From Deltaproteobacteria bacterium (GTDB taxonomy: Bacteria > Desulfobacterota > Deferrimicrobia > Deferrimicrobiales > Deferrimicrobiaceae), in NCBI GenBank assembly GCA_016218975.1, contig JACRCO010000069.1, forward strand, positions 1-64,000: a stretch of DNA of 64,000 bases. Reading direction: 5' to 3'. The notes beneath the pieces were generated by a model. The model saw only the letters and a list, made by a program, of their open reading frames with translations, ran no database searches and had not been told where the DNA came from. This document shows, in pieces, positions 22,242 through 26,775 of this stretch; the first letter of the stretch is position 1, and every line of letters begins with the position of its first letter. Position numbers and translations under genes: made by a program.

Positions 22242-23531
22242 TTACGCGCGCCGTATGGCTTTTTGCGACGTTTTTATGGCGCACAGGTCCGCGCACATCG
22301 TGCAGACTGCCTCGTCGACCGTCGGAAGACTCCCCGACCTCATCCCTCTCGCCGTTTCCGGGTCGAGGGAGAGCTCGATCTGCGCCTTCCAGTCCAGCCG
22401 GCGGCGGGCATCCGCCATCATGTTGTCCCTCTCCATGGCACCGGGAATCCCGCGGGCGATGTCCGCGGCATGGGCCGCGATGCGGGATGCGATCACGCCG
22501 GTCCGGACGTCCTCCACCGAGGGGAGGCGCAGGTGCTCGGAAGGTGTGACGTAGCAGAGGAAATCCGCCCCGTTCCATGCGGCGATCGCCCCGCCGATTG
22601 CGGAAGTTATGTGGTCGTAACCAGGAGCGATGTCGGTAACCAGCGGCCCCAGGACGTAGAAGGGGGCGCCGTGGCAGAGGCGTTTCTGGAGTTGCACGTT
22701 GGCGGCGATCTGGTGCAGCGGCACGTGGCCCGGCCCTTCGATCATAACCTGAACGTCGCGTTTCCATGCGCGTTCCGTGAGTTCCCCCAGAACGATCAGC
22801 TCGTGCACCTGGGCGCGGTCGGTGGCGTCCGCAAGGCATCCGGGACGGAGGCCGTCGCCCAGGGAAATCGTGATGTCGTATTCACGGCAGATGTCCAGCA
22901 GCCGGTCGTAATGCTCGAAGAACGGGTTCTCTGCGCCGTTGAATTCCATCCATTCGGCCAGGAGCGATCCCCCGCGGCTGACGATGTCAAGCCGTCGCCC
23001 CTCGCGGACAAGGCGCGACAGCGCCTCCCTCGTGACTCCGCAGTGGACCGTCATGAAGTCGACGCCGTCCTCCGCCTGCTTCAGTATTCCGTCGAAGAAA
23101 TCTTCGGGGGAAAGTTCGACCCAGGATTTCCCGCGTGAGGCTGCATCTGCGGCTGCCTGGTAGACCGGTACGGTCCCCACCGGGACGGGGCATTCGGCGA
23201 GGATGGCCTTCCGGATCCCGTCGATCGGGCCGCCGGTGGAAAGGTCCATGACGGCATCCGCGCCTGCGGCGACGGCGACGCGGGTTTTTTCAAGCTCGGC
23301 GGATATGTCGGCCCGGTCGCGCGAGGTCCCCACGTTCGCGTTGATCTTGACGCGCAGCCCTTCGCCGATGGCCACGGGCCGGATGTCGCGCCGCTTGCGG
23401 TTCCGCGGGATGACCGCCCTGCCGGCCGCCACCAGCTCGTTCATCCTTTCCGGCGCGATCCTTTCCTCCGCGGCGGCTTTCGCAATTTCCGCGGGAATCC
23501 CCCCCGTCCTTGCCCGATGCAGCAACGTCAT
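22242..23531 (-). CDS. thiC: Phosphomethylpyrimidine synthase
   Basis: This 429-residue ThiC converts aminoimidazole ribotide to hydroxymethylpyrimidine phosphate by radical SAM chemistry. It has KINANVGTSRDRADI, DLSTGG, FMTVHCGVT, SRGGS, EGPGHVPLHQI and GPLVTDIAPGYDHITSAIGGA. The C-terminal cluster motif is CTMCADLC, that is CX2CX3C, one residue shorter than the CX2CX4C of well studied ThiC. It belongs to the short form without the N-terminal domain. ATG 23531 has AAGGAAGG before it. It lies fifth in the riboswitch-led operon. Confidence 0.93.
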   Translation of the reverse strand: MTLLHRARTGGIPAEIAKAAAEERIAPERMNELVAAGRAVIPRNRKRRDIRPVAIGEGLRVKINANVGTSRDRADISAELEKTRVAVAAGADAVMDLSTGGPIDGIRKAILAECPVPVGTVPVYQAAADAASRGKSWVELSPEDFFDGILKQAEDGVDFMTVHCGVTREALSRLVREGRRLDIVSRGGSLLAEWMEFNGAENPFFEHYDRLLDICREYDITISLGDGLRPGCLADATDRAQVHELIVLGELTERAWKRDVQVMIEGPGHVPLHQIAANVQLQKRLCHGAPFYVLGPLVTDIAPGYDHITSAIGGAIAAWNGADFLCYVTPSEHLRLPSVEDVRTGVIASRIAAHAADIARGIPGAMERDNMMADARRRLDWKAQIELSLDPETARGMRSGSLPTVDEAVCTMCADLCAIKTSQKAIRRA

Positions 23532-23586
23532 GGCGCACCTTCCTTTTCCGCTGCGTTCCGTTTCCGCTGCCTTCAGGTCTCCGCCT

Positions 23587-24207
23587 TCAGGCGAAGCGCT
23601 CCGTGAGTTCCCTTGCCGCCGCCCGCGGGTCCGCCGCCGCGACGATACCGGATATAAGCGCGATTCCGAAACACCCGGCACGCGCGACCTCCGCCGCGTT
23701 GTGCGCGGCCACTCCTCCCAGCGCGAATACCGGGATGCGGGCCTTACCGCATGCCTCCGCAAGCGCCGCGACGCCCAGCGGGCGGCCGAACGCCGCCTTC
23801 GAGGGCGTTGCGTAAACCGGCCCGAATGTCGCGAAATCCGCTCCTTCTTCTTCCGCTCCCCGCAGTTCCTCAAGACTATGGGCCGAGCAGCCGATGAGGG
23901 ACTCCTTGCCGAGCAGGCTCCTTGCTTCGCGCGGTGTGATCGAAAATACTCCCAGGTGGACGCCGTCCGCTCCGACCGACTTCGCGACGTCGGCCCTGTC
24001 GTTCACCAGGAGCTTCGCCCCGTACCGCGCCGTGGAGGCGCGCAGCTTTTCCGCGAGGCGGAACAGCTCCTTCCCCGGCAAGTCCTTCTCGCGCAATTGA
24101 ACGGCGCGTACGCCTCCCTCCAGCGCCTTTTCGACCGTTCCCGCAATATCCCCGCCGGAAGCCAGTTTCCGGTCCGTGATGAGGTATACGCGGAAATCGA
24201 CCTTCAA
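23587..24207 (-). CDS. thiE: Thiamine-phosphate synthase
   Basis: This 206-residue ThiE joins hydroxymethylpyrimidine diphosphate and thiazole phosphate. Landmarks are YLITDRKL, GGVRAVQLREKDLPGKEL, LLVNDRADVAKSVGADGVHLG, IGCSAHSLEEL, FATFGPVYATPSK and FALGGV. Length and motifs are typical. It lies 15 bases after thiG and 55 bases before thiC on the minus strand, within the TPP-riboswitch operon. No thiD or thiF gene lies in the operon. Confidence 0.93.
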   Translation of the reverse strand: MKVDFRVYLITDRKLASGGDIAGTVEKALEGGVRAVQLREKDLPGKELFRLAEKLRASTARYGAKLLVNDRADVAKSVGADGVHLGVFSITPREARSLLGKESLIGCSAHSLEELRGAEEEGADFATFGPVYATPSKAAFGRPLGVAALAEACGKARIPVFALGGVAAHNAAEVARAGCFGIALISGIVAAADPRAAARELTERFA

Positions 24208-24222
24208 CGGATGCTCCGCCGG

Positions 24223-24993
24223 TCAGAAGAAAGTTCCGTCCAGGGGCGACGAGGCCGTCGCGTACAGCTTCCTTGGGATCCGGCCCGCGAGAAACGCCTT
24301 GCGCCCTGCGGATACCGCCTCCCGCATCGCCTCCGCCATGGTCACCGGGTCCTTCGCGCCCGCGATCCCGGTGTTCATCAGTACCCCGTCGCTGCCGAGC
24401 TCCATCGCCACGGCGGCGTCGGAAGCAGTCCCCACGCCGGCGTCGACGATAACCGGCACCTTGACGGCGTCGATGAGGATCCGGAGGTTGAACGGATTGC
24501 GGATCCCGAGGCCCGAGCCGATCGGGGCAGCAAGCGGCATTACGGCCGCGCAGCCCGCGTCTTCCAGCTTCTTCGCCATGATGGGATCGTCGTTCGTATA
24601 TGGCAGGACGACGAACCCTTCCTTCACGAGGACCTTCGCCGCCGAGAGAAGCCCTTCGGTGTCCGGGAAAAGGGTCTTCTCGTCGCCGATCACTTCGAGC
24701 TTCACCATGTTCGACATGCCGGCCTCACGGGCGAGCAGGCAGGTGCGTATGGCGTCGTCCGCGGTGTAGCAGGCTGCCGTGTTCGGCAGGAGGGTGTATC
24801 GTTTCGGGTCTACGTGGTCGAGCAGCGATTCCATGCTCCGGTCCAGGTTGACCCGCCGCACCGCCACCGTTACGATATCCGCGCCGGAGGCCTCCAGCGC
24901 CCTTACCATCGTCGGGTAGTCGGGATATTTTCCCGTCCCGACGAGAAGCCGTGACCGGAACGTTTTTCCCGCGATCGAAAGCGGCGTATCCAT
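24223..24993 (-). CDS. thiG: Thiazole synthase
   Basis: This 256-residue ThiG makes thiazole phosphate from deoxyxylulose phosphate, ThiS thiocarboxylate and dehydroglycine. It starts [21 protein letters not shown] and contains [16 protein letters not shown] (imine-forming Lys region nearby), [34 protein letters not shown] and [35 protein letters not shown]. Two bases separate it from thiS. The dehydroglycine source is presumably the HydG/ThiH-like enzyme encoded upstream. Confidence 0.95.
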
Positions 24994-24995
24994 CG

Positions 24996-25196
24996 TTATC
25001 CACCTCCTACGAATGTGACTATCTCGATCCGGTCTCCCTCGGCGAGCTCCGTGCTTCCGAAATCGGCTTTTCTTACGAGGGCGCGGTTGCGCTCCACCGC
25101 CACCCTGGATTCCGGCAGCGAGAACTCGCGCAGAAGAGAAAGCACGGTGGCGCCTTCACCGATATTCCGGCATTCCCCATTGACGAGGATCTCCAT
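24996..25196 (-). CDS. thiS: Sulfur carrier protein ThiS
   Basis: This 66-residue beta-grasp protein begins [18 protein letters not shown] and ends in GG after FVGG, the C-terminal diglycine that carries the thiocarboxylate sulfur for ThiG. ATG 25196 is chosen for the SD (AGGA) nine bases before it. The adenylating partner ThiF is not in this operon. It lies between the HydG/ThiH-like gene and thiG. Confidence 0.92.
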
Positions 25197-25213
25197 CGGT
25201 TTCCGTCCTGACT

Positions 25214-26617
25214 TCAAAAATGATGGTCCCTTCCGCCTTCAAGCGTCATCGCAAGCTTTCGCTCGAACTCGGACAGCAGCGCCGATCCTTCCATCTCCAT
25301 CTTCGCTTCCCGGACCGCGGCAAGGCATTCTTCCCGCAGCGCGACGTCTTCCGTGGAAAGCGCGAACTCCGCGATCGAAAGCAGCGCGTTGGGGAGGCAG
25401 AATTCCCGGATGTGCCCGTCCACCGCCATTTCCGTGAACGTGTCTCCGGTGCGCTGCCGCCGGTAGCAGCTTGTGCAAAGGGATGGGAGGTATCCGCGCG
25501 CGAGCACCATTCGAACGATATCCTCCATCGGCCGCACGTCGTCCACCTCGAACTGCTCCGCTTCTTGACGCCGGACGCCCTCGCTGTACCCCCCGGGATC
25601 GGTTTTCGATCCCGCACTGATCTGTGATGCGCCGATGTCAAGCGTCCGCTCGCGCAGGGAAGCGGGCTCGCGGGTCGTCACGACGACCCCTGCCGAAGGA
25701 ACAGCCAGGCGATAGACGATGACGATCCTCTCGAACTCGGCGTCCGAAACCGGGCGGGGCGCACCCGTGAGCGGAGAACCGAAAGCATGCTTGAATCGCG
25801 GAACCGAGATCGTATGCGGGAATGTCCCGAACGATTCAAAAAGGTGCTCCGCGTGCCGGATGACGGAGAGAACCTCGAACCGGTAATCGTAGAGACCGAG
25901 GAGCGCTCCGATCCCGACGTCGCCGAACCCGGCCGCGATCGCACGGTCCATGCAGGTAAGACGCCAGGCGTAGTCCGATTTCGCCCCGGACGGATGCATG
26001 GCTGCATAGGTTTCCGGATGATACGTCTCCTGGAATACCTGGAAAACTCCCGCGCCTGCTTCCTTGATCGCGCGGAGATCGTCCACGTGCATGGGTGCGG
26101 CGTTCACGTGAAGGATGCGCATGCCGGTTTCCCTGTAGATCGCTCGAAGGACTTCGGCGATGTAGGCCGGCTGCGTTCGCACGGGATGTTCGCCGGTCAC
26201 AAGGAGCAGCCGGTGGAACCCTTTCCTTTCGAGGAAGCGCGCCTCGGCGGCGGCGGCCTGCGGCGAGAGGGTGATCCGCCGCGTCTCCCGGTTTTCCCGC
26301 CGGAAGCCGCAGTAGAGGCAGCTGTTTCCGCACTCGTTTGAAAGGTAGAGGGGGGCGAACAGGACGATCCTTCGCCCGAACACTTCCTCGCGCATCGCAC
26401 GGGCGGCCGCCGCGGCCGTTTCCCATACCAGTATGTCGTCGGTCAGAAGAAGCCTTGCCGCTTCGTGGTGGCGAAGTCTCCGGTGGGGAGACAGGGAGGA
26501 GAGCAGCGCGAACGCTTCCTTCCGGCGAAGCGGTTGCGCTCCTGCGAGCAATCTCGATATTTCATCCGCCGCAACGGGAAGTGCGGCGGAGTTCCGGATG
26601 TCGTTCCGCGGAAGCAT
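25214..26617 (-). CDS. HydG-type radical SAM tyrosine lyase in the thiamine operon (ThiH role likely)
   Basis: This 467-residue radical SAM enzyme belongs to the ThiH/HydG tyrosine lyases. The radical cluster motif is C96-x3-C100-x2-C103 in LSNECGNSCLYCGFRR. It is clearly closer to HydG than to the shorter ThiH: FQVFQETYHPETYAAMHPSG, VGIGALLGLYDYRFEVL, PHTISVPR with His268, and above all the C-terminal auxiliary cluster motif C381-x2-C384-x22-C407. HydG uses that cluster to make CO and cyanide for FeFe hydrogenase. Here the gene follows a TPP riboswitch and precedes thiS, thiG, thiE and thiC, so dehydroglycine supply for thiazole is the likely job. No hydE or hydF is in the window. Confidence 0.85.
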   Translation of the reverse strand: MLPRNDIRNSAALPVAADEISRLLAGAQPLRRKEAFALLSSLSPHRRLRHHEAARLLLTDDILVWETAAAAARAMREEVFGRRIVLFAPLYLSNECGNSCLYCGFRRENRETRRITLSPQAAAAEARFLERKGFHRLLLVTGEHPVRTQPAYIAEVLRAIYRETGMRILHVNAAPMHVDDLRAIKEAGAGVFQVFQETYHPETYAAMHPSGAKSDYAWRLTCMDRAIAAGFGDVGIGALLGLYDYRFEVLSVIRHAEHLFESFGTFPHTISVPRFKHAFGSPLTGAPRPVSDAEFERIVIVYRLAVPSAGVVVTTREPASLRERTLDIGASQISAGSKTDPGGYSEGVRRQEAEQFEVDDVRPMEDIVRMVLARGYLPSLCTSCYRRQRTGDTFTEMAVDGHIREFCLPNALLSIAEFALSTEDVALREECLAAVREAKMEMEGSALLSEFERKLAMTLEGGRDHHF

Positions 26618-26683
26618 CGAAAAGCCCCCTTGAATCTTGCAATAAGGAATAACCGCGCCCGGCAGGCACGGTTCGTGAAACCA

Positions 26684-26775
26684 GCTCCCTGCGCCGGCAT
26701 TACCCGGATCAGGTTCGACGGGTTGCCCGGGACTTTCCCCGGGCTCTCAGCGAATGGCACCCCAGGCGGTTGTGG
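26684..26775 (-). promoter_or_regulatory. TPP riboswitch (THI box)
   Basis: On the minus strand the aptamer landmarks follow in order: TGGGGTGCC, CTGAGA (26750-26745), a variable hairpin with CCCGGG, ACCC, AACCTGATCCGGGTAATG and CCGGCGCAGGGA. It ends about 65 bases before the first gene. It should lower expression of hydG/thiH-like, thiS, thiG, thiE and thiC when thiamine diphosphate is plentiful. Confidence 0.95.

Follow-up and report, generated by a model that had tools for sequence, protein, structure and literature searches.

The window, that is, the whole stretch of 64,000 nucleotides that was analysed, contains on its reverse strand a thiamine operon headed by a TPP riboswitch (RF00059, positions 26669-26774), which was found by cmscan over the complete model (positions 1-105) with a score of 67.6 bits (gathering threshold 54.3, E-value 3.9e-11). 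It is separated by 51 nt from the ATG start codon of a gene for a HydG-type radical SAM tyrosine lyase of 467 aa (25214-26617), which stands in the place of ThiH and is followed on the same strand by thiS, thiG, thiE and thiC in this order. ThiS (24996-25217), the sulphur carrier, has 73 aa with a GGG end (TIGR01683, 68.3 bits, cut-off 37.45), and according to the ORF coordinates the start of its gene overlaps the 3' end of the HydG-type gene. The thiazole synthase ThiG (24223-24993, 256 aa) matches PF05690 with 369 bits, the thiamine phosphate synthase ThiE (23587-24207, 206 aa) matches TIGR00693 with 192 bits (cut-off 145.1) and the HMP-P synthase ThiC (22242-23534) matches NF009895 with 647.6 bits (cut-off 410) over residues 115-541. 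Since the latter family match begins only at residue 115, the true start of thiC is probably located at about 23534 and not at the start of the frame at 23873. The initial annotation had already placed a HydG-type gene behind a TPP riboswitch in a thiamine operon; the full-length riboswitch match and the four thi genes downstream bear this out.

HydG and ThiH form the textbook pair of tyrosine lyases, distinguished by the C-terminal cluster with which HydG splits dehydroglycine to CO and cyanide. The 467-aa protein scored 371.9 bits with the HydG equivalog model of NCBIfam (TIGR03955), above the cut-off of 312.15, and 298.9 bits with the ThiH equivalog model (TIGR02351), below the cut-off of 380. 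The radical-SAM motif CX3CX2C corresponds to C96/C100/C103. The HydG features named in the initial annotation, i.e., the auxiliary-cluster motif CX2CX22C (C381-T-S-C384-X22-C407) and the His of P267-H268-T-I-S-V-P-R, were found exactly at these residues, and its statement that the first gene after the riboswitch is not a short ThiH agrees with the two model scores and with about 90 additional C-terminal residues. The best matches in the PDB were HydG structures (4wcx and 4rtb), with ThiH (7pd1) in third place at half the score. An AlphaFold2 model built from 55 sequences reached a pLDDT of 95.5 (15 close sequences gave only 67.8) and was superimposed on HydG 4wcx with a TM score of 0.93 across 460 alignment columns. 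The TM score with ThiH 7pd2 was 0.71, the lower value being due to the last domain, which is absent from ThiH.

Residues were compared among 83 thi-type sequences, to which the 467-aa protein belongs, 59 HydG and 18 ThiH sequences. The three cysteines C381, C384 and C407 and H268, on which the auxiliary cluster would sit, are kept in all 83 thi-type sequences; the His of the PHT[IV]SVPR motif occurs in 83/83 thi-type, 59/59 HydG and 0/18 ThiH sequences, the latter having Ile or Val at position 268 and no C-terminal region. The residues T315, R316, R322, S334 and S337, whose equivalents are named as tyrosine-binding for ThiH (PMC9046217), are present in the HydG-type protein. Position 172 is occupied by Asn in the thi-type proteins as in HydG, and by Glu in ThiH. 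At position 140, Val occurs in 83/83 thi-type sequences, Glu in most HydG and Leu in ThiH, V140 being found also in 18 of the 59 HydG sequences. A Glu or Asp at the position of TcThiH 128 is described as compensating an Asn at the position of TcThiH 158 (PMC9046217). Both known carboxylate-binding glutamates are thus absent from the HydG-type protein (V140, N172), and HydG of C. hydrogenoformans, which is encoded beside HydF, likewise has V and N at positions 140 and 172. Further marks of the thi clade are I168 and H170, where HydG has Arg and Asn, so that the signature of the clade reads V140, I168, H170, V191; judging from this pattern, carboxylate binding may have passed to H170.

In a maximum-likelihood tree of 58 proteins, ThiH was separated from HydG plus the thi-type proteins by a branch with 100/100 support. 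The phylogeny of ThiH and HydG proposed as a check in the initial annotation therefore places the thi-type proteins on the HydG side, and descent from a ThiH with an acquired domain, which this branch does not support, is improbable. The thi-type rows formed one clade (support 88/80, or 99/97 without L134). The hydrogenase-linked rows (L217, L221, L223, L235, L236, L241 and L249) were confirmed as such by their HydE, HydF or hydrogenase neighbours. HydG as a single clade was not rejected (p-AU 0.347), and the thi clade may be nested within HydG or sister to it. The crystallised HydG of C. hydrogenoformans, considered as a member of the thi clade on account of its V140, was rejected as such, as it is placed outside this clade and its gene adjoins that of HydF. 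Within HydG, the rows L137, L215, L218, L219 and L251 form a subgroup with strong support that mostly carries Gly or Asp instead of the middle auxiliary-cluster cysteine; HydF adjoins in L218 and HydE in L251.

Regarding the source genome (2.95 Mb, 97.6% complete), a search with the HydG profile returned this gene and two weak matches below 18 bits only, so that no second HydG or ThiH is present genome-wide; a second ThiH elsewhere in the genome was considered and rejected, as ThiH proteins elsewhere are detected by the same profile with 168-231 bits. Neither HydF, HydE nor ThiO (TIGR02352) was found over its cut-off in this genome, nor any [FeFe]-hydrogenase (PF02906). The initial annotation had seen no hydE, hydF or hydrogenase gene in the window and had regarded a true ThiH together with hydEF and a hydrogenase elsewhere as the case that would speak against it; the genome-wide search (HydE and HydF by cut-off) found none of these. 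With no second HydG or ThiH and no ThiO, the HydG-type gene is the sole visible source of dehydroglycine. A ThiF-family E1 is encoded in the genome and the GG tail of ThiS is kept, so that sulphur can be delivered by the usual route. If the protein were an ordinary [FeFe]-hydrogenase maturase under TPP control, providing CO and cyanide for the H-cluster, the passed HydG cut-off and the retained cluster cysteines and His, both features of the CO/CN site, would be accounted for; such a maturase would, however, have nothing to serve in the absence of HydE, HydF and an [FeFe]-hydrogenase, and no source of dehydroglycine would remain for thiamine synthesis.

Among the 24 genomes of the family Deferrimicrobiaceae, 15 contain a HydG-type gene, seven a short ThiH, two neither and none both. 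In all 15 HydG-type cases a TPP riboswitch was found upstream and thiS-thiG downstream, with thiE and thiC wherever the contig extends far enough. The seven short ThiH genes (168-212 bits with the HydG model) are arranged differently, as thiS-thiG-thiH(-thiE) or thiG-thiH. [FeFe]-hydrogenase (PF02906) was found in 0/24 family genomes, as were HydE and ThiO over their cut-offs; many of the genomes surveyed in this study are MAGs, and absences are therefore incomplete.

A scan of public genomes with one genome per species yielded 79 relatives, in the main MAGs of Nitrospirota and Deltaproteobacteria/Myxococcota, along with Moorella and a few others; the nine closest were again genomes of the family. 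Within the retrieved DNA, thiG was present in 68 of the 79 relatives. Regarding the eleven without it, a ThiS-ThiF fusion gene lies next to three (L072, L083, L088), two are directly preceded by a TPP riboswitch of their own (L080, L090) and two belong to other HydG groups (L136, L137). A TPP riboswitch over the curated threshold was detected in 22 of the 26 distant thi-linked loci scanned. The recurrence of the thi-operon arrangement in 15/15 HydG-type family genomes and 68/79 relatives (partly overlapping sets) is far beyond chance. In six loci of Deltaproteobacteria/Myxococcota (L073, L075, L089, L105, L107, L128) a gap of about 0.8-1 kb between thiG and thiE would fit one gene. The thi-type H genes of L070 and L135 and the second copies in G030, G031 and G035 contain an in-frame stop or a frameshift, caused by assembly error or decay.

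A short ThiH was found in none of the 50 relatives' genomes examined; one sub-threshold match (226 bits, profile positions 7-195) was interpreted as part of a fragmented canonical HydG. HydF occurred in seven of the 50 genomes (in one of them partial and below the cut-off), and all seven contain an additional HydG of 478-678 bits as compared with 360-468 bits for the thi-type copy. [FeFe]-hydrogenases were confined to the seven genomes with HydF, to G035 and to two weak matches in G047, a possible exception, as this genome has neither HydF nor a second HydG. These two [FeFe]-hydrogenase-like proteins are encoded at L260 1452-3101 and at G047:C127:1904-2599; the former contains a DRTGG domain and has a dicluster at its N-terminus. 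Moorella has one gene of each type, a HydG of 642 bits and a separate thi-type protein of 434 bits in a thiE-thiS-thiG-H operon, and is thus a ready test organism. Among 149 Bacillota sampled, many that encode HydG have instead a short ThiH as a separate gene (about 180-230 bits). The suggestion in the initial annotation that the thiamine level controls a hydrogenase maturase is not upheld, given the lack of [FeFe]-hydrogenase throughout the 24 family genomes and the separate, better-scoring canonical HydG of the HydF-bearing organisms, and an ordinary maturase is accordingly considered very improbable.

Two loci, L240 (1-6371) and L239 (4902-7920) of the genomes G057 and G028, encode a second HydG with a canonical score among [NiFe]-hydrogenase genes, the neighbours being the [NiFe] large subunit, its cytochrome b and a HypC-HydE fusion in L240, and the HycI protease and a CobW/HypB-type protein in L239. 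Neither HydF nor an [FeFe]-hydrogenase was found in the two genomes, in which HydE and HydG may serve [NiFe]-hydrogenase maturation; where the CO for this maturation comes from under anaerobic conditions is still debated (PMC12134894). The gene following hydG-hydF in C. hydrogenoformans and a relative (L217 1553-3748 and L235 8474-10738) encodes a sigma-54 activator fused to a monomeric [FeFe]-hydrogenase-like part, perhaps a sensor of H2 or of the H-cluster. The neighbourhoods of L239 and L240 lend some plausibility to the thought that the thi-type enzyme is a source of CO or cyanide for some other metal cofactor, e.g., that of [NiFe]-hydrogenase, and lies in a thi operon for other reasons, although the HydG copies concerned are different ones. 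A [NiFe] large subunit is missing from seven of the HydG-type family genomes (G001-G006 and G008), five of which are 96-100% complete; this removes [NiFe]-hydrogenase as the acceptor of CO or cyanide there, and only two weak pieces of the large subunit (45-57 bits, one frame) were found in the source genome. As it would also leave the TPP control and the thi operon unexplained, a supply to another cofactor is hardly credible.

The partner protein points in the same direction as the operon. The tree of ThiG, which compares HydG-type-partnered with ThiH-partnered ThiG and leaves out the ThiG of ThiO-type bacteria, needs only one change to separate the sequences according to the type of H protein they accompany (support 100/98), a value as low as this being reached in 0/500 shuffles, and ThiG of Moorella groups with the HydG-type partners, apart from other Bacillota. 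This split is what a matched pair of H protein and ThiG would give.

Taken together, a tyrosine lyase that belongs to the HydG branch by descent very probably serves as the 2-iminoacetate (dehydroglycine) synthase for ThiG and does the job of ThiH. When TPP is low, the riboswitch would permit expression of the H-S-G-E-C operon; the radical-SAM barrel would cleave L-tyrosine to p-cresol and dehydroglycine (2-iminoacetate), and the latter would be passed to ThiG and joined with the sulphur of the ThiS thiocarboxylate and deoxyxylulose phosphate to form the thiazole. Production of dehydroglycine and p-cresol and the hand-over to ThiG are described for ThiH (PMC9046217), and the HydG-type protein is presumed from its sequence to perform both. 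The option in the initial annotation that HydG-like proteins can supply dehydroglycine to ThiG is strongly supported by comparative evidence, namely the thi operons with TPP control across phyla, the replacement of ThiH by the HydG-type protein, the co-segregation of ThiG and the lack of HydF, HydE, [FeFe]-hydrogenase and ThiO.

The retained second cluster may be explained by the holding of dehydroglycine, by folding or by a second product. A two-purpose enzyme, which provides dehydroglycine for ThiG and additionally uses its auxiliary cluster for genuine CO/CN or Fe-complex chemistry, would agree with the invariance of the three cysteines and H268 (83/83) and with that of S379, Y385, R389, G391 and N410 near the cluster cysteines (23/23 thinned thi rows). 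The remainder of the auxiliary region is, however, looser in the thi clade (mean identity 53% vs 61% in HydG), whereas the barrel is tighter (57% vs 52%), and no candidate acceptor of CO or cyanide was found in the source genome, which makes a double function unlikely. The pattern of fixed ligands in a relaxed region fits a retained cluster whose use has changed. Purely as a guess, the cluster could bind or shelter dehydroglycine rather than split it to CO and cyanide. That the auxiliary cluster and the extra iron of the HydG-type enzyme take part in thiazole synthesis in several phyla, e.g., by holding dehydroglycine on the iron for the matching ThiG clade, is given slightly less than an even chance; if true, the HydG cluster would have a second biological use beyond hydrogenase maturation.

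The literature searched, which covered few subscription papers, contained no description of a HydG-type protein encoded in a thi operon; the only remark in ProPhylo (PMC3226654) is that BLAST lists contain ThiH and HydG intermingled. Gaps in thiH had already been seen in anaerobes, as Geobacter was reported to lack this gene in two genome papers (PMC545781, PMC3543383). The HydG-type replacement in thiamine operons of several phyla points to an unrecognised thiazole route for vitamin B1. Furthermore, as the clade retains the cluster site and yet appears to work for thiamine, the presence of the cluster does not imply hydrogenase maturation, and the thi clade offers a natural system for studying what determines if dehydroglycine is preserved or broken down. 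The HydG equivalog model misnames the thi-type genes as hydrogenase maturases in genomes without a hydrogenase, which misleads predictions of H2 metabolism and of vitamin auxotrophy.

Compared with known systems, the protein resembles HydG (TIGR03955; PDB 4wcx from T. italicus, 4rtb from C. hydrogenoformans) in the fold over the full length with the cluster domain at the C-terminus, in CX2CX22C, in the His for the extra iron, in N172 and in its side of the tree; unlike HydG, the thi-type protein lies in a TPP-controlled thi operon without a HydE, HydF or hydrogenase partner and forms a separate clade with its own V140, I168, H170 and V191. With ThiH (TIGR02351; PDB 7pd1 from T. carboxydivorans) it shares the genome context, the TPP control, the partners ThiS and ThiG and the five tyrosine-binding residues, but it differs by the C-terminal extension with the auxiliary cluster motif, by Asn for Glu at position 172, by His for Ile/Val at position 268 and by a score under the ThiH cut-off. 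The glycine oxidase ThiO would supply the same dehydroglycine, but is an unrelated enzyme whose cut-off was not exceeded in the 24 family genomes, 15 of which have the HydG-type gene in its thi operon.
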